Notes under the pieces: model-generated | What the model was told of the DNA's origin: nothing | The model's input: only the letters and a program-made list of their open reading frames with translations | Database searches by the model: none | In this document: one piece after another, positions 12,795 through 27,564 of the stretch | How positions within the stretch are numbered: position 1 is the first letter of the stretch | How the letters are laid out: each line of letters starts with the position of its first letter | Translations under genes and position numbers: made by a program | NCBI RefSeq assembly: GCF_030433685.1 | Contig: NZ_JAROCF010000001.1 | Location: 372,001-436,000, forward strand | Source: Leifsonia williamsii | Lineage (GTDB): Bacteria; Actinomycetota; Actinomycetes; Actinomycetales; Microbacteriaceae | Direction of reading: 5' to 3' | Length of the DNA stretch: 64,000 nt

Positions 12795-13373
12795 TCACGC
12801 CGTGCCGGGAATCGGCTCCTGGTCCAGCTGCACAACCGACCACACGCCGTGCTCGAGCAGCAGTTCGCTCCAGGATCCCGTACGCACACGTGCGGTCCGA
12901 CTTGCCGGGTCGATGGCTTCAAGGAGCGGTCGAATGACCGCATCGTGGGTGACGACGCACACCGCCCCGTCGGACGCTCCCGCGAGCCGATCGAGCGCGC
13001 GCATGGCCCGCTCGAGGACACGGGAGAGGGGCTCCACGCCCGGAGCGGCGTCGATGCTACCGAACTCTGCGACGACCTCCTGTTTGACCTGGCCTGTCCA
13101 GTGTCCGTAGTCGCGGTCGTTGAACGCTGAGTCGGTCTCCACCGCGCAACCGCAGCGTTCAGCGATGATCCGCGCTGTTGTGACGGCGCGGTCGAGGGGG
13201 CTGGAGCGAACTTCCACGACTCCACGAGAGGCGAGCGCGTCGGCAACAGCACGCGCTTCGGCGATGCCGGTCTCGTCGAGGGGCGGGTTGGCGAGCCCGC
13301 GCAGTCGGCCTTCGGCGTTGAGGGCGGTCTGGCCGTGCCGGACGAGGAGGAGCGGGTGCGGGCCGTCGTTCAT
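12795..13373 (-). CDS. Histidine phosphatase family protein
   Basis: A 192-residue member of the phosphoglycerate mutase-like histidine phosphatase superfamily. The catalytic His lies in LLVRHGQTALNAEGRLRG, the second block is VRSSPLDRAVTTARII and the third is VVTHDAVIRPLL. It resembles the small acid-phosphatase/CobC-like branch rather than true glycolytic mutase; it lacks the ERNYG block of GpmA. It overlaps the second MutS-like gene by 4 bases, so it is the last gene of that operon. The substrate is unknown, and the tie to two MutS-like ATPases is unexplained. Confidence 0.85.
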   Translation of the reverse strand: MNDGPHPLLLVRHGQTALNAEGRLRGLANPPLDETGIAEARAVADALASRGVVEVRSSPLDRAVTTARIIAERCGCAVETDSAFNDRDYGHWTGQVKQEVVAEFGSIDAAPGVEPLSRVLERAMRALDRLAGASDGAVCVVTHDAVIRPLLEAIDPASRTARVRTGSWSELLLEHGVWSVVQLDQEPIPGTA

Positions 13374-14902
13374 CTCGCTCCCTGGGATGGGAGTGTCGGT
13401 TGCAGTTCGTCGGGGTCCAGTGTCGTCCCGAATATCCGTTCATACAGGTCGGCGCCGAAGCTGGTGGGCAGTGGGATGCCCCGTTGGATGCGGAAGTCCC
13501 GGTGTCCGTCGTCCTCTCGGCCGGCACGGAGGAAGACGGTGTCCGTTCGCTTCTCCTCGTGAGCACGGCTCGCGTACTCGTACAAGTGGGTGACGAAGGC
13601 GACGGAGACTCCGCTGTCCCGGAGCGCCCCGATGACGTTTCGGGCGATTTCTGAGCCTTCGCGTTCGTTGGTCGATGCGAAGGACTCGTTGAGCAGGGTG
13701 AGCCCGCCCGGTTGGGCTGCATCGACGGTGGCGCTCATGCGTGCCAGTTCCTCGTCGAGGCGACCGCTGGTTCGCGCGGCGTCTTCCTCGCGGGTGAAGT
13801 GGGTGTGGATGGTGGTGCGCAAGGCTGTGGAGAAGGACTCGGCCGGCACGAACAGGCCGCAGTGCGCTAGCAAGGTGGCCTGGCCAATGCTGCGGAGAAA
13901 GGTGGACTTGCCTCCTCTGTTCGCGCCGGTGATGACGGTCACGGTGGTGTGGTTCAGGTCCAGCGTGTTCCCGACGACCGGTGACCCGGACAACAGGACC
14001 AGCGCCGCGTCATAGAGACCGGTGCAGGTGAATCCCGGGGACGCGTGGAAGCTTGGCAATGCAACGGGCTCTTGGAAGGAATTCAGCGCATTGTGAAGGT
14101 TGCACGCGCCGACGAAGAAACCTGCCTCTGTCCGTAGGGCGTTCCAGAAGCCGGTGAGGTGATCGGCCGCCTGACCGAGCGCGTCCGCGACCGGGTCTAG
14201 TGCGCGGTCCTTGAGCTCGCTGAGCGCCTTGTATCCTGCTTCGTCACGGTCGGGAAGGGTGAAGGTGTGGTCGGGGCGTCGGAACCCCAGGCGCACCAGG
14301 AGCGGGGGTCGGGTCAGCGGTGGCCGAGTCAGGGTGATACCGGTGGCCTTGTTCGCGGTGCCGAGCGTGGCGGCTGCATCGACGCCGTGGGGGAAGGTCA
14401 ACTCAGTGAGCAGCACGGTGACTTGCTCGAGCCACTCGTCCGACACGTCCTGTTCGAGTGCAGCGAAGAAATCGGTGAACGCCTGCGACTGGAATGTCGC
14501 GGCGTTCGCGCGTGCGAGTTCGCGCAGTGCTTGGAGGTGCCGAACGTGGATGCGGAGCACCTCGATGGAGTGATGCACCACCCCGGCGGGCGTGAACAGT
14601 CCCCATCCGTATGCCTTCTTGACCTCGTCCAGGGCGTGCTTCGGCGCCTGATAGAGCTCCAGGATCGTCTCGGAATTCGCTAGGGCGTCCCGCACCGCCG
14701 CCTGTCGGTAGGCGATGGCGGCTGGGTCGTTGAGCGGTTGGTGCAGCATCGCCGTCGCGACGGTCTCGACGGTCGTATCGTCGCGGGCCATCGCCCGCAC
14801 GAGAGCGCCAAGCTCGAGGTCGACGAATCGGTCGCGCGCAAGCTCATCAGGTTGGTATTCGACCGTGGCGTCACGGTCGCGATACAGCAGTCGCGGCCTC
14901 AT
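13370..14902 (-). CDS. MutS-like ATPase (second of pair)
   Basis: 510 residues. The C-terminal third is a MutS domain V ATPase with Walker A GANRGGKST, then a long coupling helix and LTLLNESFASTNEREGSE. The N-terminal two-thirds is helical and corresponds to MutS core/lever domains. There is no mismatch-binding domain I with the Phe-x-Glu motif, so it is not a mismatch-repair MutS. In the Walker B position the usual Asp is replaced by Asn (LLNES) while the Glu is kept. It overlaps its neighbours by 4 bases on both sides. It probably forms a heterodimer with the paralogue at 14899; the role is unknown. Confidence 0.8.
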   Translation of the reverse strand: MRPRLLYRDRDATVEYQPDELARDRFVDLELGALVRAMARDDTTVETVATAMLHQPLNDPAAIAYRQAAVRDALANSETILELYQAPKHALDEVKKAYGWGLFTPAGVVHHSIEVLRIHVRHLQALRELARANAATFQSQAFTDFFAALEQDVSDEWLEQVTVLLTELTFPHGVDAAATLGTANKATGITLTRPPLTRPPLLVRLGFRRPDHTFTLPDRDEAGYKALSELKDRALDPVADALGQAADHLTGFWNALRTEAGFFVGACNLHNALNSFQEPVALPSFHASPGFTCTGLYDAALVLLSGSPVVGNTLDLNHTTVTVITGANRGGKSTFLRSIGQATLLAHCGLFVPAESFSTALRTTIHTHFTREEDAARTSGRLDEELARMSATVDAAQPGGLTLLNESFASTNEREGSEIARNVIGALRDSGVSVAFVTHLYEYASRAHEEKRTDTVFLRAGREDDGHRDFRIQRGIPLPTSFGADLYERIFGTTLDPDELQPTLPSQGAR

Positions 14903-16431
14903 GAGAGGACCCGTTCTCGGATGCGCTGTGGCGATAATCCGTACTTCTCGGCGATCGCGGTGGCGTGCGCGAGTCCATCCGGTGGCCGGCGGACAATGCG
15001 GAATGTGCGGCGCATGGGGTCGTCCGCAGCGACCTCGGCCACGACGCTGACCACTGACGGCGTCATCACCGCCAGCTCGTCCAGGAAAGTGACCGTGACC
15101 CCAATTGCGCCGGCGTCGAGCAGCGCGTGGAGGACGCGTTCGTTCAGGGAGAGCGCGTCCTGGGCGGTGGTCGAGCTGAAGAGCTCGTTCGCGATGACGA
15201 TGGAGTTTGAGGTAACGCGCTCGAGGATGTCCCGTACGCGGATGAGGTCGTCTTCGAGGCGGCCTCGCAGCAGAGCGAGGTCCTCCTGACGCTCAAAATG
15301 CGTCAGTAGAAGATCGAAGCGAGCCAGCCGTGCGGTGCGTGCGGCGACCGGGAACCCGAGCGCGGCCATCCAGTGCAGCTGACCGAACACGCGGGCGAAG
15401 GTCGACTTGCCACCCTGGTTGGCCCCGGTGACGACAAGGAACTGCTCGCCCGGCGCGAGACGGATGTCGTTCGGGACGATGGACGCGCGGGTTTTCGGTT
15501 GGGCGGCGAGTTGCAGGTCGTAGCCGTCGACGACCTGCACGCTTCGGTCCGTGGTGAGTTCGGGCAAACAGGTAGGTAGTGTCTCTCCGGCCGCCGCCTT
15601 CAGGTGATCCAAGACGGAAAGGTACAGGTGCAGTCCGCGTTCATATCGCGCGACAGTCGTGGCTAGGAATGCGGCATGCTCGCCGGCGAAGCGTTCGAGC
15701 GCTTGGAATGCGGAGGGGAAGACTTCCGCAACGAGGTCGAGGACGCCCGCTTCGACGCGGTTCATCTCGACAGCGTCGACGAACCGTGTGCGATGCGAAC
15801 CCGCGTCCGTCTCTTTGAAGCGGGCGAAGGCGCCGGCGACAGCAGCACTCTGATCCGTGCCGCTTGCGTCTGCCAGAACGGTGACGCTTCCGCCCTGAAT
15901 GTGGAAGTCGTACTTGACCGCGTCCAGTTGTGCAGCGACCGAGCGGGCATCCATGCTCAGGCGTGTGAATGGCTCAGAGCGAACATACTCGGCGAGTACT
16001 TGTGCGGCGGCTTGCAACGCTTCCGAGCGGAGCGGGCACCTGGTCAGAGCATCGGCGGCGGTGCCTACGACGCCGGCGTATTGACGGGCGGCATCCAGTA
16101 GAACCCGCTGGGCCTGTCGCGGATACCGCAATCGCCGGGCCAGGCCGAGGGATTCCCGCACCGCCGCGATGCCTGCGACGAACGTGCGGCAGGCAGCAAT
16201 CACGTTTGGAGTGTCGAGATCGGCGAAAACGCCGTGGCGGTACTCGACCGTGGGAGCATCGGCCACGGTCCAGAACACCGCGGCCAGCTCCAGCGGGTCG
16301 TCGCCGAGCACGTCGGTGACGATCTGATCCAGGCCGAGATCAGGGAAGCATCCCGGCTGTTCTTCCGCCAGCTGCTTCGGCTGGCCGGGTGGGAACAGCA
16401 GACTGGTGGGCGTTACCTCGCGGTCGGTCAT
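14899..16431 (-). CDS. MutS-like ATPase (first of pair)
   Basis: This is the first gene of the three-gene operon, 510 residues, the same length as its downstream paralogue. The ATPase domain has Walker A GANQGGKST, FARVFGQLHWMAALG and a Walker B-like IVIANELFSSTTAQDA. Again Asn stands in place of the catalytic-site Asp and the Glu is retained. The helical N-terminal region contains no mismatch-recognition domain. A good AGAGGAG precedes the ATG. Such MutS-related proteins of about 500 residues occur in Bacteria without a known function. The twin arrangement suggests an obligate heterodimer, as in eukaryotic MSH pairs; that is inference. Confidence 0.8.
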   Translation of the reverse strand: MTDREVTPTSLLFPPGQPKQLAEEQPGCFPDLGLDQIVTDVLGDDPLELAAVFWTVADAPTVEYRHGVFADLDTPNVIAACRTFVAGIAAVRESLGLARRLRYPRQAQRVLLDAARQYAGVVGTAADALTRCPLRSEALQAAAQVLAEYVRSEPFTRLSMDARSVAAQLDAVKYDFHIQGGSVTVLADASGTDQSAAVAGAFARFKETDAGSHRTRFVDAVEMNRVEAGVLDLVAEVFPSAFQALERFAGEHAAFLATTVARYERGLHLYLSVLDHLKAAAGETLPTCLPELTTDRSVQVVDGYDLQLAAQPKTRASIVPNDIRLAPGEQFLVVTGANQGGKSTFARVFGQLHWMAALGFPVAARTARLARFDLLLTHFERQEDLALLRGRLEDDLIRVRDILERVTSNSIVIANELFSSTTAQDALSLNERVLHALLDAGAIGVTVTFLDELAVMTPSVVSVVAEVAADDPMRRTFRIVRRPPDGLAHATAIAEKYGLSPQRIRERVLS

Positions 16432-16605
16432 CGGCGCTCCTCTACCCGGACGCGTGCAGCGTCACATTCAGGTAGAAGCCATCAGCGGGGACCCGCGGTT
16501 GCCGGTGAGCCTCATCACCGTGGTGCGTGCCGTAACCATAACACCGTCGCATCCGGACTTGTACCCGCGACGGCTTCTGGCATTATGGGAGCTGACGGTT
16601 CGCCG

Positions 16606-16700
16606 TCGCGGTGGTGGGGCTCGCCGCAACCAACCTCGGCTTCGCCGACAACGGTCCCTATCTCGTGAGACGCGCACGCCCGTGCGCCCGGAGATAGGAG
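16606..16700 (+). promoter_or_regulatory. Fluoride riboswitch (crcB motif) with SD-sequestering platform, copy 1
   Basis: The aptamer fits the crcB motif: a first stem GGTG...CGCC enclosing eight bases (GTGGGGCT), an AACC-containing joint, a short hairpin (TCGGC/GCCGA), then a 3' strand ending GGTCCCTATCTC. TGGGG in the first loop can pair with CCCTA of the 3' strand to form the pseudoknot. The same CCTATCTC can instead pair perfectly (8 bp) with GAGATAGG at 16691-16698, which covers the ribosome-binding site. Fluoride binding would thus free the site and turn translation on. It precedes uspA-gpmA-crcB-crcB. Confidence 0.85.
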
Positions 16701-16704
16701 CACG

Positions 16705-17223
16705 ATGACCGATCACAGGCCCGAACCGCCGCCGCGTGGGGTCATTCTCGTCGGAGTGGCGAAGGATCTCGCGGACGCCGTCCTGGTCGTCGCCTCGCGC
16801 CTGGCGGCGGACCTCGGCTGTGACCTGGTCTGCGCGACAGTGGACCCGAACCGCTACGCCGTCGACGAAGGGGCCGACGGCACGGTCCGCTCCGTTCCGA
16901 TCGACCCTGATCTGCCGGAGTTCGAGGAGGATGTCTTCGATCCTGCACTGACCCGCCGGATCGAGAAGCTGCTCGCCGGGACGCGGGTCTCCTGGAGCAA
17001 ACGCACTCTCGCCGGCGATCCCGCGCGTGCCCTCGGCCACCTTGCGGAGAAGCTCGATGCCCGGATGATCGTCGTGGGAACCCACGAGGCTGGGCTGCGC
17101 ACCAGCATGCGCGAGTTCTTCCGGTCCTCCGTCGCTGTTCATCTCGCTCACCGGCAACGCCGACCCGTCCTCGTCGTACCGCTCTCCCCGGTCGACGATG
17201 GCCGAGCCTTGCCGTGGGAGTGA
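16705..17223 (+). CDS. Universal stress protein (UspA family)
   Basis: A 172-residue single Usp domain. The N-terminal strand VILVGVAKDLADAV and the C-terminal nucleotide-binding block IVVGTHEAGLRTSMREFFRSSVA (G-x2-G-type, then SS) followed by PVLVVPL are typical of ATP-binding Usp proteins. It starts 5 bases after the riboswitch-controlled ribosome-binding site, so its translation should respond directly to fluoride. It overlaps the next gene. UspA-like genes are often found with fluoride exporters in Actinobacteria; how the protein helps is not known. Confidence 0.88.
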   Translation: MTDHRPEPPPRGVILVGVAKDLADAVLVVASRLAADLGCDLVCATVDPNRYAVDEGADGTVRSVPIDPDLPEFEEDVFDPALTRRIEKLLAGTRVSWSKRTLAGDPARALGHLAEKLDARMIVVGTHEAGLRTSMREFFRSSVAVHLAHRQRRPVLVVPLSPVDDGRALPWE

Positions 17224-17975
17224 GGGAACGGGTCGCCGAGGTCTACCTGCTCCGCCACGGTGAGAGCACGGCCAACGCGCGAGGACTATTCACCGGTGTC
17301 CTGAACCCGGGGCTGAGTGAACTCGGCCGGGAAGAAGCGCGACGCGCTGCAATGCTCCTGGCGCAAGCCGGCGTCCGTCCCACTCGGGTGTTCTGCTCAG
17401 CGCTGCGGCGAACAATCGAGACCGCGCAGGAAATGGGCGCGGTCATGGATTTGCCGCGGGCCGAAGTCGAATGGCGACTCGACGAACGCAACTACGGGGC
17501 CCTGACCGGACTCTCGAAGACGGAGGTCGCCCGACGTGCAGGCCAGGCACGCTACCGGGAGTGGCGACGCTCCTACGACGTCGCACCGCCGCCGATGTCG
17601 GAGGCCGAGATGGCCCGACTCCGTGGCAGGCCGCCGTTCAATCGGTTGCCGTCCCAGGCGCTCACAGCCACGGAATCTCTCGCCGATGTCGTACGCCGGA
17701 TCACACCGTTTCTCGACGATGTACTTCTCCCTGCGGCCGGCGCCGGCCGCCCGATCCTGGTGATCGCGCACGGTAACTCCCTGCGCGCGTTGCTGTTCGT
17801 GGTGCAGCAGTTGACGCGCGAGCAGGTCGAGCAGCTGAACATTCCAACCGGTCACCCGCTGCGCTGCCGGTTCGAGCTGAGTCACGGCCGCTTCCGGCTG
17901 CGGTCGGCAACCTACCTCGACCCCGAGGCGGCGGCCGACGCCGAGGATGTCCTTCGAAGCCAAGGGGGTACCTGA
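17214..17975 (+). CDS. gpmA: 2,3-bisphosphoglycerate-dependent phosphoglycerate mutase-like
   Basis: 253 residues from a GTG at 17214; a second in-frame GTG at 17220, overlapping the uspA stop as GTGA, is equally plausible. The catalytic His15 lies in YLLRHGESTANARG. The glycolytic-type block WRLDERNYGALTGLSKTEV and WRRSYDVAPPP follow, and ILVIAHGNSLRALL supplies the second His. The ERNYG and RRSYD blocks distinguish GpmA from general histidine phosphatases. It would interconvert 3- and 2-phosphoglycerate, the step before enolase, whose spare copy is encoded downstream. An accessory copy in a fluoride cassette fits a need for glycolysis under fluoride. Confidence 0.85.
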   Translation: MGVRERVAEVYLLRHGESTANARGLFTGVLNPGLSELGREEARRAAMLLAQAGVRPTRVFCSALRRTIETAQEMGAVMDLPRAEVEWRLDERNYGALTGLSKTEVARRAGQARYREWRRSYDVAPPPMSEAEMARLRGRPPFNRLPSQALTATESLADVVRRITPFLDDVLLPAAGAGRPILVIAHGNSLRALLFVVQQLTREQVEQLNIPTGHPLRCRFELSHGRFRLRSATYLDPEAAADAEDVLRSQGGT

Positions 17976-18497
17976 ATGGTGTCCCGTCGTGAAAGGAGCC
18001 GGCTCCTGAATACCGAGAGCCACACCATGCCCGTCGATCCCGACGTCGTCGCCGACGATGTCCCGGCGAGGCGGACACGCCCTGTCCACCTCCACTGGAG
18101 ATACATCGGCCTCGTGTTCGCCGGCGGCGCCATTGGCACCACGATCCGCTATCTCCTGTCGCTTTCAGTTCCGACCGTCGACGGGATACCCGTGATCACC
18201 TTCGCGATCAACGTGGTGGGTGCGTTCGCCCTGGGCTGGCTTCTCGCCGGTCTCTCCCGGGGGCCGGACCAAGGCATGAGACGAGTTGTGCGGCTCTTCG
18301 TCGGGACAGGGGTACTCGGCGGGTTCACGACCTACAGCTCCTTCGCTGTCGACACCGATGGACTCATCGTCGCCTCCAACATCGCGGGAAGCATCGCGTA
18401 CGCCGTCGCGACTCTCCTCGTCGGTGCGCTCGCCTCGCTCGCCGGCATCGCCCTCGGCACGGCCATCAACCGCCGCGCGAGCGGAGGGACCCGATGA
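17976..18497 (+). CDS. crcB: Fluoride channel/exporter CrcB (Fluc), subunit 1
   Basis: 173 residues, with four membrane helices preceded by an unusually long hydrophilic N-terminus of about 45 residues. Family motifs are present: GGAIGTTIRYLLS, TFAINVVGAFALGWLLAG, and GVLGGFTTYSSFAVD with the conserved Thr/Ser track and Phe. The start at 17976 is backed by AAGGGGG just upstream; a later ATG at 18027 has none. Fluc channels work as dual-topology dimers, and in Actinobacteria often as a heterodimer of two adjacent genes, as here. Passive fluoride export across the membrane. Confidence 0.92.
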   Translation: MVSRRERSRLLNTESHTMPVDPDVVADDVPARRTRPVHLHWRYIGLVFAGGAIGTTIRYLLSLSVPTVDGIPVITFAINVVGAFALGWLLAGLSRGPDQGMRRVVRLFVGTGVLGGFTTYSSFAVDTDGLIVASNIAGSIAYAVATLLVGALASLAGIALGTAINRRASGGTR

Positions 18498-18874
18498 CCG
18501 GCTTCCTGGTTGCCCTCGCAGTCGCCGCCGCCGGTGGAGTGGGCGCGGCCAGCCGACTTGTCGTCGACGGCATCGTGAAGTCACGAGTGACGATCCCGTT
18601 CCCACTCGGCACGACCATCATCAACATCTCGGGGTCGTTCCTGCTCGGGCTCGTAACCGGTCTCGCCACCTTGGCGCTGCTTGCACCGGAGTGGCGGGCC
18701 ATCATCGGAGTGGGACTGCTCGGCGGGTACACCACATTCAGCACCGCAAGCTTCGAGACCGTCCGCCTCGCGCAGGAGGGCCGATATCGTGCCGCGGCCG
18801 TCAACAGTGTCGGCATGCTCGCCGGCGCTCTGCTCGCCGCGGGGCTCGGCCTGTGGATCGGCTGGCTGGTATGA
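18494..18874 (+). CDS. crcB: Fluoride channel/exporter CrcB (Fluc), subunit 2
   Basis: 126 residues with four membrane helices and all CrcB motifs: GGVGAASRLVVDG, GTTIINISGSFLLGLVTG with the pore Asn, and GLLGGYTTFSTASFETVRL. It overlaps subunit 1 by 4 bases (ATGA), so the two are made together and probably assemble as an antiparallel heterodimer. Its opposite membrane orientation to subunit 1 would be expected from the family but is not proven here. Confidence 0.93.
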   Translation: MTGFLVALAVAAAGGVGAASRLVVDGIVKSRVTIPFPLGTTIINISGSFLLGLVTGLATLALLAPEWRAIIGVGLLGGYTTFSTASFETVRLAQEGRYRAAAVNSVGMLAGALLAAGLGLWIGWLV

Positions 18875-18944
18875 GAAAACCATCCGCACGGTGTTCCGTT
18901 TCCCCCGATTGTGTGCCACACTCCCAACCAGCGCTTCGGCGCTT

Positions 18945-19026
18945 CGGCGGTGGGGCTCGCCGACACCAACTTCGATGCCGACAACAGTCCCTATCTCACG
19001 CGATCACGCACGCCTGGAGATAGGAG
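18945..19026 (+). promoter_or_regulatory. Fluoride riboswitch (crcB motif) with SD-sequestering platform, copy 2
   Basis: A second copy of the aptamer at 16606. The first stem GGCG...CGCC encloses exactly GTGGGGCT, then come an ACACCAAC joint, a short hairpin ending CCGA, and the 3' strand CAGTCCCTATCTC. As in copy 1, TGGGG can pair with CCCTA (pseudoknot) while CCTATCTC can pair with GAGATAGG over the enolase ribosome-binding site (GATAGGAG, followed by ATG at 19032). Linker and loop bases differ between copies while paired elements are kept, which argues for function. Confidence 0.85.
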
Positions 19027-19031
19027 ACACC

Positions 19032-20408
19032 ATGCACGAGCACGGCTACACCGGCCACATCGACGCCGCCCACCAGGGCCACTACATCAGCCACCCCGAA
19101 ACGCACCCGGTCGCGATCGAGCGAGTCACCGCCCGCCAGATCCTCGACTCCCGCGGCTACCCCACGGTGTCGGTCACGCTCCACCTGCACGATGGCATGC
19201 AGGTCTCTGCCTCCGCGCCCGCCGGAGCATCAACGGGGGCGTATGAAGCCGTCGAGCTCCGCGACGACGGGCCCTCCTATTCCGGTCGAAGCGTTCACCG
19301 CGCCGTTGCCGGCGTCGAGACGGAGATCTCGCCCGTGCTGGCGGGCCGCCATTGGACGACGCTGCGTGAACTGGACGATGCCCTGCGAGCGCTCGATGGA
19401 ACCGAGAACCTTACTCGTCTCGGCGCCAACGCGGTGGTGGCCGTGTCCATCGCCGCAGCCCGCGCTTTCGCACACGCCTCGGAAGTTCCGCTGCATGTGT
19501 GGCTTGCTCGGGTCACCGACAGTGCGCAGAGACTCCCCGTCCCGCACTTCAACGTACTCAACGGCGGCGCTCACGCGGCCAACCCGCTGGAGTTCCAGGA
19601 GTTCATGATCGCCCCCGTCGGGGCCGCGGACGAGGCAGCCGCAGTGGAGGCCGGAGCAGAGATCTACCACGCCCTCGCCGCCCGGGTGAAGGCTCGATTC
19701 CACACCGCCGGCCTCGGCGACGAAGGCGGCTTCGCCCCCGACATTGCCAGCCCAGAAGAAGCGATGGAACTCCTGGTGCAAGCCATCCAGGACGCGGGGT
19801 ACACCCCCGGTCTGAACGACGTAGCAATCGCCATCGACCCTGCAGCGAACGGCTTCTACGAGCGGGAAGGAAAGTACAAGATCGCCGGAAAGCTCCTGGG
19901 TCGCGACCAGCTCGTCGACTACTACATCAAGCTCCTCGACGAGTACCCGCTGCGCTCCATCGAGGACGGCTTCGCCGAAGACGACCATGCCGGATGGAAG
20001 CTGCTCTACGACGCCGTCGGCGACCGCACACAACTCGTCGGCGACGACCTTTACGTGACCGACCCCCGGCGAATCTCCGACGGCGCCCGCAACCACTACT
20101 CCAACGCGGCACTGATCAAGCCCAACCAGATCGGCACTGTCAGCTCCACGCTGGACGCCATCGCAACCGCCCGTCGACTCGGCATGCAATCGATGGTCTC
20201 CCACCGCTCCGGCGAGACAACCGACGCCTTCATCGCCGACCTCGTCGTCGGAACAGGAACCGGGCAGATCAAATCCGGCGCCCCCGCCAGAGGAGAGCGC
20301 GTCGTCAAGTACAACCGACTGCTCGACATCGAGCTGGACAACAAGTCCCTCCCCTACGGTCTCGAGCTGGCTCCCACCCACGCACCCGAGGTGGCGTTGG
20401 AGCCCTGA
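19032..20408 (+). CDS. eno: Enolase (accessory, fluoride-riboswitch controlled)
   Basis: 458 residues: a normal enolase plus about 25 extra His-rich N-terminal residues (MHEHGYTGHIDAAHQGHY). Motifs: ARQILDSRGYPTVSV, SAPAGASTGAYEAVELRD, GLGDEGGFAPD, SIEDGFAEDD, LIKPNQIGT and SHRSGETTDAFIADL. The metal-binding Asp normally in ALDVAAS reads AIDPAANGFY here, a small deviation. It converts 2-phosphoglycerate to phosphoenolpyruvate. Enolase is the classic target of fluoride, so a riboswitch-driven spare copy should restore flux, either by dose or by lower sensitivity. A strong terminator follows. The main chromosomal eno should lie elsewhere. Confidence 0.92.
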   Translation: MHEHGYTGHIDAAHQGHYISHPETHPVAIERVTARQILDSRGYPTVSVTLHLHDGMQVSASAPAGASTGAYEAVELRDDGPSYSGRSVHRAVAGVETEISPVLAGRHWTTLRELDDALRALDGTENLTRLGANAVVAVSIAAARAFAHASEVPLHVWLARVTDSAQRLPVPHFNVLNGGAHAANPLEFQEFMIAPVGAADEAAAVEAGAEIYHALAARVKARFHTAGLGDEGGFAPDIASPEEAMELLVQAIQDAGYTPGLNDVAIAIDPAANGFYEREGKYKIAGKLLGRDQLVDYYIKLLDEYPLRSIEDGFAEDDHAGWKLLYDAVGDRTQLVGDDLYVTDPRRISDGARNHYSNAALIKPNQIGTVSSTLDAIATARRLGMQSMVSHRSGETTDAFIADLVVGTGTGQIKSGAPARGERVVKYNRLLDIELDNKSLPYGLELAPTHAPEVALEP

Positions 20409-20458
20409 GAACACTTCCGCCCACATCGGGTTATCCACGTGACCCGGCGCGGGAGTGA

Positions 20459-20494
20459 GAGGGGGAGCGCCTTCACACCGAGGCGCTCCCCCTC
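20459..20494 (+). terminator. Strong intrinsic terminator after enolase
   Basis: A perfect 13-bp stem (GAGGGGGAGCGCC with its complement) closes a 10-base loop and is followed by GTTT. It ends the fluoride cassette transcript just before the MFS gene. Confidence 0.85.
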
Positions 20495-20515
20495 GTTTGG
20501 ACTGAAGGAGAGCCG

Positions 20516-21750
20516 GTGACATCGCCGCATAACGCTCGCAAGGACGAGGACGCGAAGTGGCTCACGCTGGGAGTCGCCTCCATCGGTGCGGCCAGCTTCT
20601 TCTCGGATGCCGGCCATGAAATCGCGACGAGCGTCATGCCCGCGTTCCTCACCTCCGTCCTCGGCGGCAGCGCAGCAACTCTCGGCCTCATCGAGGGCAT
20701 CAGCGACGCACTCACGGGCACCATGAAAGTGATCGGCGGCCCGCTCGCCAACGACCCTGCACGGCGGCGCAAGCTCGCCACCGGTGGGTACATCGTCACC
20801 GCTGCAGCCACCGCCGCGATCGGGTTCGCCACAGCGGTCTGGCAGGTGGGGGTGCTTCGAGCCCTCGCCTGGGCAGCTCCGGGGGGGTGCGATCACCCGC
20901 CCGGGATGCGCTCCTCGGCTCCCTTGCCAGACCGCATACGTTCGGACGGGCGTTCGGTCTTGAACGCGCGGGCGACAACCTCGGCGCCGTGGTAGGGCCG
21001 CTCCTGGCGGCTGTGCTCGTCGCGTGGCTCGGTCTTCGACCGGCGATCTGGTTCGCATTCGTCCCTGGGATGCTCGCTGCCATCGCCATCATCGTCGCCG
21101 CCCGTGAAGCGAGAGGACCCACGACTGGAGTGCGTCGCCCAATGCGCTTGGACGTTCGGGGGCTCCGCCGCGCCGGGATCGGAAGGCCGCTTCTGCCCGT
21201 GCTGCTCTTCGAGTGCGGCAATCTCGCAACCACGCTGTTGATCCTGCGGGCGACGGACCTGTTCACGACCCTCGGGTTCGCAAACGCTGCCTCGCTCGCG
21301 ATCCTGCTCTACGCGGGCCACAATGCCGTCGCCGCCCTGATCGCCCTTCTGGGAGGCTTCTGGCTCGACCGCGTCGGGCCGCGGCGCGTGTTCGCGTCGG
21401 GGGCGATCGCCTATGTCCTCGCGTACGGGCTCATCGCCCACGCTTCGATCCACTGGGGGTTCGCCGTCGCGGGCTTCCTGCTCGCAGGAGCGGGCATCGG
21501 CCTGGCCGAGACAGCTGAGTCCGCTCTCATCGCTCGGATACTCCCGGACGAACTCAGAGGCAGCGGATTCGGCGTCGTCGGAGGAATCCAGGCAGTGGGG
21601 AACATCGTCGGAACGGTTGTTGCGGGGGCGCTCTATGCGACAGTCTCTCCGGCCGCTGCGTTCACGTACGCGGGAGCATGGATGTTGCTGTCAGCTTGCA
21701 CGGCCGGCGTCTTCCGAGCGCGGGCACCGTCAGGGCAGAACCCGGGGTAG
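20516..21750 (+). pseudogene. MFS transporter split by a frameshift in a run of seven G
   Basis: The first frame (20516-20887) encodes an MFS N-terminus (GVASIGAASFFSDAGHE, then LIEGISDALTGTMK, then VGVLRALAWAAPG). The second frame, from 20887 to 21750, continues without a gap as VRSPARDALLGSLA and the remaining helices. The switch falls on seven G at 20881-20887. Removing two G or adding one restores a single protein of about 410 residues, with a continuous junction AWAAPGVRSPARDALL. This may be a true mutation, a slippage site, or a sequencing error. The family resembles MFS proteins encoded with metal genes. Position after the enolase terminator suggests it once belonged to the fluoride or copper cargo. 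Confidence 0.8.
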
Positions 21751-21886: not shown

Positions 21887-22291
21887 TCACATAGCGGCGA
21901 GCAGTGCGGCACACGCCCGTTCGCAGCGCCGACATACCTCAGCACAGATTCGGCAGTGCTCGTGCATGTCGGCATGCTTCTCGCATTCATCCGCACAGGC
22001 GCCGCATACGGTGCGGCACGATTCAAGCGCCGCCCGCGTGACGTTGGCGTCATATTCGGTATGACGGGAGAGGACATTGCCGGTCGAAGCACAGATGTCT
22101 GCGCAGTCGAGATCCGTCCGGATGCACTTGATGAGCTCGGCGACCATCTCCTCGCTGAGGCATGCATCCGCGCAGGCCGTACAGGCCTGTGCGCACTCGA
22201 TGCATGCCTCGATACAGCCGCCCAGCTTGTCGCGGTCCACGCCTCCGAGATCCGCCGGATATGTCTCGAGCATTCGCGTTGCGGTCGACAT
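21887..22291 (-). CDS. Four-helix bundle copper storage protein (Csp-like, DUF326)
   Basis: 134 residues with 17 Cys, many in CxxxC and CxxC spacing along helices: GGCIEACIECAQACTACADAC, KCIRTDLDCADICAS, CRTVCGACADECEKH, and CRICAEVCRRCERAC. This is the pattern of the Csp family, whose four-helix bundles are lined with Cys and store many Cu(I) ions. No signal peptide is present, so it is the cytosolic Csp3-like type. It is divergent from copZ-copA with two CsoR boxes in between, so it is probably derepressed by copper together with the efflux genes. Confidence 0.9.
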   Translation of the reverse strand: MSTATRMLETYPADLGGVDRDKLGGCIEACIECAQACTACADACLSEEMVAELIKCIRTDLDCADICASTGNVLSRHTEYDANVTRAALESCRTVCGACADECEKHADMHEHCRICAEVCRRCERACAALLAAM

Positions 22292-22383
22292 GGTGACTGC
22301 CCTTCCTCTTCATTGATCCCGCCTGCCCATGCGACGGTACCCGCCACATCGCCGTTCTCCACCCGCAATCGCGACTTGCGGGA

Positions 22384-22400
22384 ATACCGCCCAGGGGTAT
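22384..22400. promoter_or_regulatory. CsoR operator box 1, csp/copZ divergent gap
   Basis: ATACCGCCCAGGGGTAT, a GC-rich inverted repeat of the CsoR type, lies between csp and copZ. With box 2 it is placed to control both directions. Confidence 0.7.
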
Positions 22401-22418
22401 CCTGTTGGTAAAGCGGTG

Positions 22419-22435
22419 ATACCCTCCCTGGGTAT
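22419..22435. promoter_or_regulatory. CsoR operator box 2, csp/copZ divergent gap
   Basis: ATACCCTCCCTGGGTAT, a closer match to the CsoR consensus (ATACCC and GGGTAT arms). It lies about 20 bases before copZ and 35 bases (centre to centre) from box 1. The likely repressor is the CsoR encoded at 27583. Confidence 0.75.
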
Positions 22436-22456
22436 GCACGATTCGATGGAGGAACG

Positions 22457-22666
22457 ATGGAAACAATCGACTACCAGGTGACAGGGATGACCTGCGAGCA
22501 CTGCGAGCGTGCAGTGTCCACCGAGGTCGGTCAGGTGACCGGCGTCGACAGCGTGAAGGTGTCCGCGAGCGACGGCATCTTGCACATCACTACCGGAACC
22601 GGAGTCGACGACGCGGCGGTGCTCGCCGCGGTCGATGAGGCGGGCTACGCCGCCGTCCGCAAGTAA
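22457..22666 (+). CDS. copZ: Copper chaperone CopZ (single HMA domain)
   Basis: 69 residues forming one heavy-metal-associated domain. The Cu(I) site is MTCEHC (Cys13, Cys16) in the first loop, and the ferredoxin-like pattern ends DEAGYAAVRK. It carries Cu(I) in the cytosol to the CopA ATPase encoded 37 bases downstream, and possibly to CsoR or Csp. AGGAACG precedes the ATG. It is the first gene of the copper operon, right after the CsoR boxes. Confidence 0.92.
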   Translation: METIDYQVTGMTCEHCERAVSTEVGQVTGVDSVKVSASDGILHITTGTGVDDAAVLAAVDEAGYAAVRK

Positions 22667-22703
22667 GACCGAGACCTCGTCTCACCACCGCAAGGAGCCC
22701 AAC

Positions 22704-25001
22704 GTGTCAGCATCTCCCACCACCGCCGCCGCCGGATCGACCCTTGAACTCGAGGTCGGCGGGATGACCTGCGCGTCGTGCGCCATGCGGATCGAGAAGA
22801 AGCTGAACCGGCTCGACGGCGTAACGGCGACGGTGAACTATGCCACTGAAAAAGCTCGCGTGACGATTCCGGCCGGCATGGACGTCACGGCGGTCATCGA
22901 GGAGGTCGAAAAGACCGGATACACCGCAGCGCTGCCGGCCGCCAAGCCGGACGCAGCTGGGAAAGACGACGACCCGGAGCTCACCGGACTGCGCAACCGC
23001 CTGATCGGAAGCGTGGCGCTGTCGGTTCCGGTCATCGCGCTGGCGATGATCCCCGCTCTGCAGTTCACCTACTGGCAGTGGCTCTCACTCACCCTCGCTG
23101 CACCCGTCGTGGTCTGGGGCGCGTGGCCGTTCCACAAGGCCGCCTTCATCAACGCCCGCCACGGGGCGGCGACCATGGACACACTCGTCTCGATCGGCAC
23201 CCTCGCGGCGTTCGCGTGGTCGCTGTATGCGCTGTTCTTCGGCACCGCCGGGATGCCGGGAATGACCCACGGGTTCAGCTTCACGGTCGCTGCCTCCGAC
23301 GGCGCCGGAAACATCTACCTTGAGGTCGCATCCGGGGTGACCACGTTCGTCCTCGCCGGGCGCTACTTCGAGAAGCGATCCAAGAGGCAGGCTGGCGCCG
23401 CGTTGCGAGCCCTGCTGGAGTTGGGCGCGAGGGACGTCGCGATCCTGCGGGACGGTCAAGAGACTCGCATCCCGATCGAGAAGCTGCACGTTGGTGACGA
23501 ATTCATCATCCGGCCCGGCGAGAAGATCGCCACGGATGGTGTCGTCGTCGACGGTGCGAGCGCGATCGACATGTCGCTGCTGACCGGCGAATCGGTGCCG
23601 ATCGAGGTCACCGTCGGGGATACGGTCTCCGGTGCGACCGTCAACGCCGGCGGCCGCCTGCTCGTCCGGGCCACCCGGGTGGGCAGCGACACCCAGCTGG
23701 CTCAGATGGCCAAGCTGGTCGAGGATGCCCAGTCAGGCAAGGCCGAGGTGCAGCGCCTCGCCGATCGAATCTCCGGAATCTTCGTGCCCATTGTGCTCGG
23801 CATTGCCGTGATCACTCTGGCCGCGTGGCTGATCACCGGCCATCCGGTCGCTGCAGCGTTCACCGCCGCGGTGGCCGTGCTGATCATCGCCTGCCCATGC
23901 GCACTCGGCCTGGCCACCCCGACAGCGTTGCTGGTCGGGACGGGTCGCGGCGCGCAGCTCGGCATCCTGATCAAAGGACCGGAGGTGCTGGAGTCCACCC
24001 GCACCGTCGACACCATCGTGCTGGACAAGACCGGAACCGTCACCACCGGAAAAATGACACTGATAGACGTCGTGACGGCTCCGGGGGTCGACGAGACCGA
24101 GCTCCTGCGCGTTGCGGGCGCCGTCGAAGCAGCATCGGAGCACCCCATCGCCCGCGCCGTCGCCGCCGCAGCGACGGATCAGAGCGGCGCGCTTCCCGTC
24201 CCGGAGTCCTTCGTGAACATCGAGGGCCGCGGAGTGCAAGGCGTCGTTGATGGCCACCTCGCGCTGGTGGGCCGCGCCACCCTTCTCGAGGACTGGTCGA
24301 TCACACTCGACCACGCCCTCACCGCCGCCAAGAACGCTGCGGAAGCGGCCGGCCGAACGGTCGTCAGTGTGGCCTGGGACGGCGAAGCCCGCGGCCTGCT
24401 TGTAGTCGCTGACGCCATCAAACCGACCAGCCATGAGGCGGTTGCTACCTTCAAGCAGATCGGGCTCACTCCGATCCTTATCACCGGCGACAACGCCATC
24501 GTCGCCCGAGAGGTCGCCGAGGCCGTCGGTATCGAAACGGTGATCGCCGACGTGCTCCCCAAAGACAAGGCAGAGACCATCCGCCGGCTTCAGGCCGAAG
24601 GCAAGACCGTGGCGATGGTGGGTGACGGCGTGAACGATGCGGCAGCCCTCGCAACCGCCGATCTGGGTCTCGCGATGGGGACGGGCACCGACGTCGCTAT
24701 CGAAGCGGCCGACGTCACGCTGGTCCGCGGCGACCTGCGGGCCGCCGCTGATGCGGTTCGCCTGGCCCGTCGAACGCTGGGCACGATCAAGACCAACCTG
24801 TTCTGGGCATTCGCCTACAACGTCGCCGCGATTCCCCTGGCCGCCCTGGGCCTGCTCAACCCGATGATTGCCGGAGCCGCGATGGCGTTCTCCAGCGTCT
24901 TCGTCGTCAGCAACAGCCTCCGCCTCCGCAGCTTCCGCCCCCGCGGCACAGCCACCACTCCGACCACCAACACCCCCACCCGCGTCCTCGAGACCGCCTG
25001 A
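22704..25001 (+). CDS. copA: Cu(+)-exporting P-type ATPase CopA
   Basis: 765 residues from a GTG preceded by AAGGAG; the open frame 23 codons longer overlaps copZ and is less likely. One N-terminal HMA domain has GGMTCASC. Eight membrane helices follow the P1B plan, with CPC in IIACPCALGLATP (helix 6), the actuator TGES, the phosphorylated Asp in DKTGTVTTGK, HP in SEHPIA, and the hinge GDGVNDAAAL. The last helices carry YNVAAIPLAA and MAFSSVFVVSNSLRL, the Cu(I) sites of the P1B-1 class. It pumps Cu(I) out of the cytoplasm. Confidence 0.95.
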   Translation: MSASPTTAAAGSTLELEVGGMTCASCAMRIEKKLNRLDGVTATVNYATEKARVTIPAGMDVTAVIEEVEKTGYTAALPAAKPDAAGKDDDPELTGLRNRLIGSVALSVPVIALAMIPALQFTYWQWLSLTLAAPVVVWGAWPFHKAAFINARHGAATMDTLVSIGTLAAFAWSLYALFFGTAGMPGMTHGFSFTVAASDGAGNIYLEVASGVTTFVLAGRYFEKRSKRQAGAALRALLELGARDVAILRDGQETRIPIEKLHVGDEFIIRPGEKIATDGVVVDGASAIDMSLLTGESVPIEVTVGDTVSGATVNAGGRLLVRATRVGSDTQLAQMAKLVEDAQSGKAEVQRLADRISGIFVPIVLGIAVITLAAWLITGHPVAAAFTAAVAVLIIACPCALGLATPTALLVGTGRGAQLGILIKGPEVLESTRTVDTIVLDKTGTVTTGKMTLIDVVTAPGVDETELLRVAGAVEAASEHPIARAVAAAATDQSGALPVPESFVNIEGRGVQGVVDGHLALVGRATLLEDWSITLDHALTAAKNAAEAAGRTVVSVAWDGEARGLLVVADAIKPTSHEAVATFKQIGLTPILITGDNAIVAREVAEAVGIETVIADVLPKDKAETIRRLQAEGKTVAMVGDGVNDAAALATADLGLAMGTGTDVAIEAADVTLVRGDLRAAADAVRLARRTLGTIKTNLFWAFAYNVAAIPLAALGLLNPMIAGAAMAFSSVFVVSNSLRLRSFRPRGTATTPTTNTPTRVLETA

Positions 25002-25022
25002 CCACCCATGAAAGGGAACACC

Positions 25023-25280
25023 ATGAGCGACAGCTGCTACAGCACCACCAGCAACCTCCACGACGACGCCGCCATGCCCGCCGGGGCCACCAACCTCCTC
25101 GGCGGCGCCGGCGCAGACGACCTCACTGAGTGCGTCGTGATGAAGGGCAGCACCGTCAGCAAGGCGAAAGCAGAAGCAGCCGGCCTCTACCGTGACTACA
25201 ACGGTGAGCGGTACTGGTTCTGCTGCGCTGGCTGCGCACCCCGTTTCGACGCTGATCCCGCACGCTACGTCGCCGCGTAA
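25023..25280 (+). CDS. YHS domain protein
   Basis: 85 residues. The C-terminal half is a YHS-type metal-binding domain: DYNGERYWFCCAGCAPRFDADPARYVA, with adjacent Cys pairs instead of a single Cys. YHS domains are common as fused or free partners of heavy-metal ATPases. The ATG at 25023 follows AAAGGGA at good spacing; another ATG at 25008 lies ahead of that site. It lies between copA and copB, so is probably a small copper-binding helper for one of them. Confidence 0.85.
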   Translation: MSDSCYSTTSNLHDDAAMPAGATNLLGGAGADDLTECVVMKGSTVSKAKAEAAGLYRDYNGERYWFCCAGCAPRFDADPARYVAA

Positions 25281-25338
25281 CCGTCACCGCCCGGTACAGG
25301 CGGACTCCAGCACATCACCCAAGTGAAGGGCTAACACC

Positions 25339-27564
25339 ATGACCGATCACAACGGGCACGACCACCACGCCGGCCACGTCATTCCAACCGGAACCGAATC
25401 TGTTCACCAGCAGCACGCCGGAGACTTGAGTGACAGTGGACACGACGCGAGCCAGCATGCTGGACACGACATGACCCGGCACTCCGGACATGACATGGCC
25501 GGACACGGCGGACACGGTGGGATGGGCGGCCACGCCGGACACGGTGACCACGTCGGCCAGTTCCGGCGGCTGTTCTGGATCATGCTGATCATCGCCATTC
25601 CCGTTGTCGGGTTCTCTCCGATGTTCGCCATGATCCTGGGATACCCGCTGCCGGACGCGGTCTGGGTGGCATGGATCTCACCAGTCCTCGGCACGGTCAT
25701 GTACGTGTGGGGCGGCCGTCCCTTCCTCACCGGCGCGGTAAGCGAACTGCGAGCCCTCAAGCCAGGGATGATGCTTCTGATCGCGCTGGCGATCACGGTC
25801 GCGTTTCTGGCCTCCTGGGGCGCCAGCCTGGGCATCCTGGATCACGAACTCGACTTCTGGTGGGAGCTCGCACTCCTGATCGTGATCATGCTGCTCGGGC
25901 ACTGGATCGAGATGCGGTCCCTGGCGCAAACCACCTCCGCCCTCGACTCGCTCGCCGCCCTGCTACCCGATGAGGCGGAGCGTGTGGAGGGCGACATCAC
26001 CGTGCAGGTCGCCCCCTCTGACCTTCAGGTCGGCGATATGGTCGTGGTCCGCCCCGGCGGGCGGATCCCGGCGGACGGGCGGATCGTCTCCGGGTCGGCG
26101 AGCATGGACGAGTCGATGATCACCGGCGAATCCCGCACTGTCCGCCGTGACGTCGGCGACGCCGTCGTCGCCGGCACCGTCGCCACTGACTCCGGTCTGC
26201 GTGTCGAGATCACAGCTGTCGGCGACGATACCGCCCTCGCCGGTATTCAGCGCCTGGTGAGCGACGCGCAGAACTCCTCCTCTCGGGCCCAGCGGATCGC
26301 TGACACCGCAGCCGCCTGGCTGTTCTGGTTCGCCCTCGGCGCCGCCGTTATCACCGCGTTGGTGTGGACGATGATCGGGCTCCCCGATGAGGCCGTCGTA
26401 CGGACCATCACCGTTCTGGTGATCGCCTGCCCGCACGCGCTCGGCCTGGCCATCCCGCTGGTGGTCTCCATCGCCACCGAACGCGCCGCGCGCGGTGGTG
26501 TCCTGGTGAAGGACCGCCTTGCCCTGGAGAGCATGCGGACCGTCGACACGGTGCTCTTCGACAAGACTGGCACCCTGACCAAAGGCGAACCCACAGTCAC
26601 CGCCATCGAGACCATCGATGGCACCAGCTCCGATCAGCTCCTGGCTCTGGCAGCAGCTTCCGAAGCCGACTCCGAGCATCCTCTTGCCCGGGCGATCGTC
26701 AACGCCGCCGCGGCGCGCAACCTGCAGGTGAGCGGGGCGAGCGGTTTCGAGTCGTCGCCGGCTGTTGGCGTGTCGGCCACAGTCGACGGCCACCATATCC
26801 AGGTCGGCGGCCCCAACCTGCTGAACGAGGCGGGCGTTGAGGAACTTCGTGTCGCCGACGCCTGGCGGGAGGATGGCGCGATCATTCTGCACGTTCTCAT
26901 CGACGGGCACGTGGCAGGCGCGCTGAAGCTCGCCGACGAGATCCGCCAGGAGTCCCGGCAGGCCGTCGACGCGCTGCACGCGCAGAACGTGCAGGTCGTG
27001 ATGATCACCGGCGACGCCGACACCGTCGCCAACTCGGTCGCGACCAACCTCGGCATCGACCGGTACTTCGCCGGAGTCCGACCAGAGGACAAGTCCGCCA
27101 AGGTCAAAGAACTCCAGGCGGAAGGCCGCAGGGTGGCGATGGTCGGCGATGGCGTGAACGACGCCCCCGCCCTCGCCCAAGCCGACGTCGGCATCGCCAT
27201 CGGCGCCGGTACGGATGTCGCCATCGCCTCTGCAGGAGTCATCCTCGCCAGCGACGACCCCCGCTCCGTGCTCTCGGTCATCGAGCTCTCCCGGGCCAGC
27301 TACCGCAAAATGAAGCAGAACCTGTGGTGGGCGGCCGGTTACAACCTGATCTCCGTGCCACTCGCCGCCGGCGTCCTCGCACCCATCGGCTTCGTCCTGC
27401 CCATGTCCGTCGGCGCCATCCTGATGTCCCTGTCCACCATCGTCGTCGCGCTCAACGCCCAACTGCTGCGCCGCCTCGACCTGCGACCCGAGACCAGCGC
27501 GCGAACCGCCCTCGAACGATCCCGTACTCTGCCTGAGACCAAGCAACCCGCCTCCCGCATCTAA
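25339..27564 (+). CDS. copB: P1B-3-type copper ATPase CopB
   Basis: 741 residues. Instead of an HMA domain the N-terminus is a long His/Gly/Met-rich tail ([21 protein letters not shown] and similar). The intramembrane motif is CPH ([14 protein letters not shown]), the mark of the CopB class, which exports Cu(II) or Cu(I) with a different site than Cop[21 protein letters not shown] and [10 protein letters not shown] are intact. It complements CopA; carrying both is usual in high-copper resistance islands. Confidence 0.94.

Follow-up and report, generated by a model that had tools for sequence, protein, structure and literature searches.

The window analysed here is a stretch of 64,000 nucleotides from Leifsonia williamsii (genome of 3.89 Mb in 2 contigs), which carries on its plus strand a cassette of fluoride exporter and glycolytic enzyme genes, and the two leader RNAs of this cassette are the main subject of this work. 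The cassette begins with a gene for a universal stress protein (Usp; 16705-17223, +; Pfam Usp, without an NCBIfam match), followed by a gpmA-type phosphoglycerate mutase of the 2,3-bisphosphoglycerate-dependent type (17214-17975, +; TIGR01258, 196 bits at a cut-off of 81.7), two CrcB (Fluc) subunits, a (17976-18497, +; Pfam CRCB, 80.3 bits) and b (18494-18874, +; 84 bits), and an enolase with a His-rich N-terminal extension and the motif AIDPAAN (19032-20408, +; TIGR01060, 495 bits). These Pfam and NCBIfam profiles bear out the gene list of the first-pass annotation of this DNA (usp, a gpmA-type mutase, two crcB genes and eno). Both CrcB proteins exceed the Pfam CRCB cut-off, while that of TIGR00494 is passed by the second only, and the mutase lies above the TIGR01258 subfamily cut-off and scores too low for all of the equivalog models listed, due to which its activity as a phosphoglycerate mutase is presumptive. 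A second enolase (C1:3257908-3259137, 48% identical to that of the window), a second gpmA (C1:3479113-3479835, 42% identical) and a second crcB pair (C1:816408-817162) are present in the host genome, and the window genes are thus extra copies. The first-pass annotation had allowed that the host might have no other enolase or gpmA; with second copies of both found elsewhere in the genome, the reading of the window eno and gpm as the housekeeping copies is rejected. The unit is closed by a hairpin of 13 bp without mismatch (20459-20471 with 20482-20494, +, as seen in the sequence), and to this extent the strong terminator described earlier stands; however, the hairpin has a 10-nt loop and a short, weak T stretch, and it is missing from the output of a terminator scan. 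A promoter scan over 16400-20560 found none. On the other strand, a canonical fluoride riboswitch (RF01734; 16466-16528, -; 47.5 bits, gathering score 34) lies upstream of a divergent mutS-like operon, whose first gene codes for a MutS domain V (ATPase) protein (14899-16431, -) and is followed by a second such gene (13370-14902, -; both Pfam MutS_V) and by a histidine phosphatase family protein (12795-13373, -; Pfam His_Phos_1).

The leader in front of usp (leader 1; 16593-16704, +) consists of a 5' hairpin, an aptamer-like core and a hairpin that sequesters the Shine-Dalgarno sequence, and it scores 139.3 bits with R1, a model of the two window leaders and hence built from it. Its core (16608-16661, +) scores 76.9 bits with R2, a core model built on 24 well-aligned cores that include it. 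As read from the sequence, stem P1 of this core pairs 16608-16613 with 16622-16627 around a loop at 16614-16621, the first base of which corresponds to G6 (16614); AACC follows at 16632-16635, P2 pairs 16636-16640 with 16644-16648, and C38 (16649), the pseudoknot strand (16654-16658) and U48 (16659) complete it. In both minimum free energy (MFE) and centroid folds, CCTATCTC at 16657-16664 pairs with GAGATAGG at 16691-16698 in the Shine-Dalgarno region, so that the 5' arm of this hairpin begins within the pseudoknot strand. The leader before eno (leader 2; 18929-19031, +; 126.7 bits with R1, likewise built from it) has its core at 18944-18994 (68 bits with R2, which includes it), with G6 at 18950, C38 at 18982, the pseudoknot strand at 18987-18991 and U48 at 18992, and folds and sequence place its Shine-Dalgarno-sequestering hairpin at 18990-18997 with 19017-19024. 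The two leaders are identical in 80% and 85% of the columns in two alignments, and a core pattern of 22 bases, with up to 3 mismatches allowed, matches the window twice, where 0.02 matches are expected. The two fluoride-riboswitch-like leaders of the first-pass annotation are thus real, alike and of such an architecture, but RF01734 does not match either of them even at E<=10, and the reading of these leaders as two catalogued RF01734 riboswitches, which have no match at the gathering score or at E<=10, is rejected. That annotation was silent on the canonical riboswitch at 16528-16466 (-), the sole RF01734 match at E<=0.001 in the host genome. The MFE folding z-scores of the two leaders are -0.13 and -2.35; such scores do not prove structure, for which comparative evidence is used here.

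The distribution of the leader was examined in several samples. R1 finds it in 39 of the 299 Microbacteriaceae genomes, host included (40 were matched, from which one chance match, G032/L056, was taken out), and the five further genomes of the host's genus that this family sample contains had no leader match. Six of the 57 R1 matches were dropped, viz. L055, L056, L018:2334 and window:50088 as chance matches by eye, and window 16429-16546 (-) and L014 as canonical. With R2, 29 of 297 genomes in a sample of the order were matched, 23 of which hold the variant on reading, and 12 of 296 genomes in a sample of the phylum, where 6 hold it; 16 of the 81 R2 matches were dropped (14 chance-like, 2 canonical) and the remaining 65 read as variants. 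A DNA pattern for the variant matched at least 120 stretches in a named genome collection, many of them from Streptomyces, and the matches listed also include Nocardioides, Brevibacterium, Curtobacterium, Mycobacterium, Kribbella, Jiangella, Actinomycetospora and others, as well as one metagenome-assembled genome from Trueperaceae; the same pattern had 0 matches in viral contigs. When the pattern was left open to A/G or C/U at positions 6, 38, 39 and 41, it matched 50 places in 46 of 394 genomes of the class, two of these places being in the window, and its reversed control had one match among the matches listed. Further, the 30 best-scoring crcB loci from 98 Actinomycete genomes were inspected by pattern, and the variant is present upstream of 6 and the canonical form upstream of none of them. 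Based on these matches, the variant form is common in Actinomycetes.

The cores share an architecture of P1 with an 8-nt loop, AACC, P2 and a pseudoknot between loop and tail, together with the letters A40 and U48. The covariation alignment holds 37 of the 39 distinct cores, as two with a very long P2 were left out, and standard pairs are formed in 91.3% of its cells. Its covariation score is 0.252, versus 0.137+-0.011 for shuffled alignments (0 of 500 reach it) and at most 0.111 for slid versions, and 8 pairs are changed on both sides versus 5.4 upon shuffling (6 of 500 shuffles reach 8). A larger set of 191 cores was obtained with a pattern that demanded G6, A40, C41, U48 and either C or U at 38. 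Here the sixth pair of P1 is GC in 166, AU in 18 and CG in 2 cores, and the closing pair of P2 is GC in 118 and UA in 61 of the 182 cores in which P2 was found. The pseudoknot, nearly always GGGGC:GUCCC, has its pair 13-42 formed in 190 of the 191 cores (UA 82, CG 77, UG 31, unpaired 1; shuffle mean 157, maximum 169). Position 38 is C in 190 of these cores, with C or U allowed, and A40, C41 and U48 are found in 64 of 64 variant R2 matches that reach the tail, where no letters were demanded by a model which is itself built from such sequences.

Compared with the canonical fluoride aptamer, the variant has G6:C38 in place of A6:U38 and CAAC in place of UGAU at 38-41, while A40 and U48 are kept. 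G6:C38 is present in all 37 cores, and the 50 places found with the open pattern comprise 49 with G6 (C38 in 48, U38 in 1) and 1 with A6 (and U38). On the canonical side, 58 of 128 listed RF01734 places were read (those given a locus, with the local match L270 left out; a few weak A6 rows among them are probably chance), and 54 have A6 (U38 in 51, C38 in 3) and 4 have G6, all with CAAC. The letters are therefore bimodal, with A6 joined to U38 or G6 to C38 in 104 of the 108 readings, one place being read twice. RF01734 itself aligns end to end (model 1-64) on short variants in 4 of the 10 loci tried, with 15.6-22.9 bits, and three of these alignments, which were viewed, have the expected register with mismatches at A6 and UGAU. 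At four listed variant places, one of them shared with the 10-locus test, its scores are 22.9-27.3 bits, and wherever tested no variant reached the gathering score of 34 bits, 27.3 bits being the maximum. In tRNA, the Levitt pair, a reversed Watson-Crick pair, likewise switches between G:C and A:U, and an exchange of A6:U38 for G6:C38 is thus structurally reasonable. In the canonical structure A6:U38 is a reversed Watson-Crick pair and A40:U48 a Hoogsteen pair (PMC11586693), the latter being the linchpin that is locked by fluoride (PMC8752731).

The tail of the variant takes part in a further hairpin, whose 5' arm is formed by the last two C of the pseudoknot strand, U48 and the following bases, and whose 3' arm is located at the Shine-Dalgarno region. 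Within 140 nt, 144 of 182 distinct leaders have a 7-nt segment fully complementary to the tail (shuffle mean 13.6, maximum 20), although, the leaders being interrelated, this and the following hairpin counts are not counts of independent events. By offset of the 7-nt arm (0, 1 and 2) the counts are 28, 144 and 113 of 182 leaders; a test with the arm starting one base earlier gave 24, and a hairpin at any of the three offsets is present in 149 (shuffle mean 29.8, maximum 33). Many arm pairs covary across the 182 leaders, and a start codon follows the arm after 3-20 nt in 143 of the 149 hairpin leaders, versus 44% for randomly chosen places in these leaders. As the end of the pseudoknot and U48 are shared with the 5' arm of the hairpin, the two folds are mutually exclusive. 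This arrangement, with the pseudoknot and linchpin on one side and the Shine-Dalgarno hairpin on the other, predicts a translational on-switch, which would presumably respond to fluoride.

The genes downstream of the leaders were compared for the variant and canonical forms. The at least 120 stretches listed contain 125 pattern matches, 116 of them with at least 700 nt downstream, and genes of the cassette type (CrcB, Eno, Gpm, Usp, MutS-like, inorganic pyrophosphatase and DUF190) were sought within 2 kb on the same strand. Such genes follow 106 of these 116 matches versus 4 of 115 on the divergent side, and CrcB or Eno alone follow 100 of 116 versus 1 of 115. Canonical leaders, surveyed at 50 RF01734 places and 5 others (14 of the 55 having no match to the reference proteins), precede crcB pairs, usp-crcB-crcB, gpm-eno and mutS, as the variants do. 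Both forms occur in one cluster at three places, viz. the window, a Rhodococcus plasmid (L011), where the canonical form precedes crcB and the variant precedes eno and mutS, and Microbacterium sp. STN6. The main argument for a common ligand is that the variant and canonical forms are thus swapped before the same genes. Within ~5 kb, the STN6 cluster (L059/L146) combines four leaders of the variant form with one of the canonical form (34.1 bits). Other gene contexts were met in mycobacteria: at L139 and L194 (-) the variant lies upstream of a frame read as a NarK-like transporter of the major facilitator superfamily (MFS), and not of crcB, L194 having another variant leader in the opposite direction before another frame, and the frame downstream of it in Mycobacterium sp. 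SM1 (L149, -) reads as a membrane subunit of the formate-hydrogenlyase type. Such a context has a precedent, as an association of the crcB motif with formate hydrogenlyase genes, and also with mutS, was reported in 2010 (PMC2864571).

Judged by these sequence comparisons, the leaders probably represent an unlisted subtype of the fluoride riboswitch, which would bind fluoride. A number of observations weigh against this interpretation. RF01734 leaves both plus-strand window leaders unmatched, and in 6 of the 10 loci tried it also misses the variant at E<=10. The stems are imperfect: the fifth pair of P1 is a C-A mismatch in 15 of 191 cores and is unpaired in 10 of 37, the outermost pair of P1 is formed in only 144 of 191, and P2 is paired in 76.5% in the 37-core alignment because some of its rows are shifted, compared with 96.7% when only the 24 well-aligned rows are taken. 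The patterns and models themselves account in part for the invariance of A40, C41 and U48, and the sequences are related, so that the shuffles overstate the support. The tail hairpin is absent, under the rule used, from 33 of 182 leaders. Lastly, the cassette-type set includes Usp and DUF190, which are non-specific for fluoride, and 10 of the 116 listed matches precede none of its genes; the frames read there include NarK-like transporters (mycobacteria), a GTPase and a formate-hydrogenlyase-type subunit, and tblastn at such exceptions gave a PAP2 phosphatase and an MFS transporter.

These observations lend themselves to other explanations, which differ in how far they depart from a fluoride riboswitch. 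The leaders may be plain members of the known class that are missed by the Rfam threshold and form no distinct subtype, which is compatible with the interpretation as a fluoride riboswitch; the sub-threshold RF01734 alignments and the intermediates A6/C38 (3 of 54) and G6/U38 (1 of 49) would be expected in this case. However, the letters at 6 and 38 fall into two groups in 104 of 108 readings, and RF01734 has no match in 6 of the 10 loci or on the window leaders, and we regard a mere threshold effect as rather unlikely. The lack of an RF01734 match on the two window leaders could also mean that they bind a protein or act in attenuation and have no relation to fluoride riboswitches, which they would resemble by convergence, but the same order of segments with near-equal lengths in short forms (L081), the retention of A40 and U48 and the coupled change at 6:38 render this highly improbable. 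A more specific alternative is that the fluoride aptamer fold here senses a ligand other than fluoride, another small anion or a metal-anion complex, which occurs together with fluoride stress. The changes sit in the ligand-near loop and tail (6, 38, 39 and 41), and changes of this kind alter specificity in other riboswitch families; some contexts also lack crcB, e.g. those with NarK-like transporters in mycobacteria (by frame reading). Against this, the gene sets equal those of canonical leaders and the two forms stand together in one cluster at three places. Further, fluoride is held by three Mg ions (PMC11586693), due to which base changes need not alter specificity, and a different ligand appears quite improbable. 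It is likewise improbable, if slightly less far-fetched, that the G6:C38/CAAC form constitutes a distinct class of sensor, built on the fluoride aptamer scaffold and with its own ligand or affinity window, existing beside the canonical switch in Actinomycetes; in that event, parts of one cassette would answer different signals or doses.

Under the favoured interpretation of the leaders as a fluoride riboswitch subtype, three leader RNAs would control the window cassette, the canonical one acting on the mutS-like operon (-) and the two variants on usp-gpm-crcB-crcB and on eno (+). Binding of Mg-fluoride would lock the pseudoknot and the linchpin, free the ribosome-binding site and turn translation on; the exporters would then lower cytoplasmic fluoride, and the extra mutase and enolase may make up for the inhibited housekeeping enzymes. 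According to a 2024 review, only ~15% of Fluc (CrcB) exporters are regulated by a riboswitch and other regulatory mechanisms exist that are unknown (PMC11139923); part of this gap may, on the small crcB sample given above, correspond to RNA control missed by the catalogue. A recent large functional survey began from Rfam RF01734 sequences (PMC13273304), and as it was drawn from these the variant form was probably unsampled there. The natural swap of A6:U38 for G6:C38 offers a direct test of which bases near the Mg-fluoride site matter, and the variant may supply translational fluoride switches fit for high-GC hosts.

The enolases of these cassettes have features of their own. The His-rich N-terminal extension and AIDPAAN, which the first-pass annotation pointed out, are present in the window enolase, and AIDPAAN-like motifs recur in the cassette enolases: 22 of the 31 distinct enolase frames at the loci compared show Asp-Pro-Ala (A[LIM]DPA[AS][NST]) and 8 end short of the region, so that it is found in 22 of 22 readable ones. 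The remaining frame, the other enolase of the host, reads GLDVAST, and the best PDB relative has ALDAAAT at this motif, the Asp of which we take to be a metal ligand. The altered metal handling at which the first-pass annotation hinted is thus conjectural, as would be any effect on fluoride inhibition. The His-rich N-terminus is found in the cassette enolases of several Micrococcales and not in others, e.g. L091. On the Clavibacter phaseoli plasmid pCP (L010), the cassette enolase reads as a shorter frame that is partly annotated as a hypothetical protein. An enolase-like stretch is also contained in 683 Escherichia plasmid records; among those listed, the coverage of the query is only 26%, except in one record as large as a chromosome. 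Just 3' of the window cassette, an MFS transporter (20516-21750, +) is split over two overlapping frames, 20516-20995 and 20887-21750, which reflects either a broken gene or a sequence error, and part of it shares 52% identity with the MFS gene in the Rhodococcus cassette. Beyond it, 21887-27564 codes for a DUF326 protein, two P-type ATPases (one with an HMA domain) and a YHS-domain protein and looks like a metal-resistance neighbourhood.

The gene content of the window resembles that of a known system. Enterobacter cloacae FRM has an operon, ppaC-uspA-eno-gpmA-crcB-orf5249, under an RF01734 riboswitch, which reportedly is induced by fluoride and required for resistance at a high level, and the rationale given by its authors is that of additional copies of inhibited enzymes (PMC5533749). 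The proposal of the first-pass annotation that the cassette keeps the 3-PG to PEP segment of glycolysis running under fluoride is plausible, the genes being extra copies, but it had already been published for E. cloacae in the same paper. That operon, located on a genomic island, comprises nearly the same set of genes, and the crcB, extra eno, gpm and usp are all present in the window; however, it is described with one RF01734 leader, whereas in the Leifsonia window two variant leaders accompany a canonical one, crcB is present twice, eno follows crcB without an intervening ppa, and a mutS-like operon is adjacent. A cassette of exporters and spare glycolytic enzymes is therefore of a known kind and the new part is the leader RNA. 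Among the loci compared, the named cassette most similar to that of the window is found in Leifsonia aquatica H1aii (L208; Usp 71% and Eno 83% identical). The plasmids pSGAir0127 of Micrococcus luteus and pVQ143 of Clavibacter michiganensis carry usp-gpm-crcB-crcB-ppa-eno with a variant leader before usp, as in the window, from which they differ in having an inorganic pyrophosphatase gene; their DNA is ~68-70% identical where aligned, and R1 gave no credible second leader before eno in them. No description of the variant was found in the open-access literature, a search outside of which the founding fluoride-riboswitch paper and the variant-riboswitch survey fall. In comparison with RF01734, the variant is distinguished by G6:C38, CAAC, an often longer joint before AACC and its scores below gathering. 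It is like RF01734 in having P1 with an 8-nt loop, AACC, P2, a 5-nt joint, the loop-tail pseudoknot and A40 with U48, and also in its contexts, viz. crcB, eno, gpm, usp and mutS.

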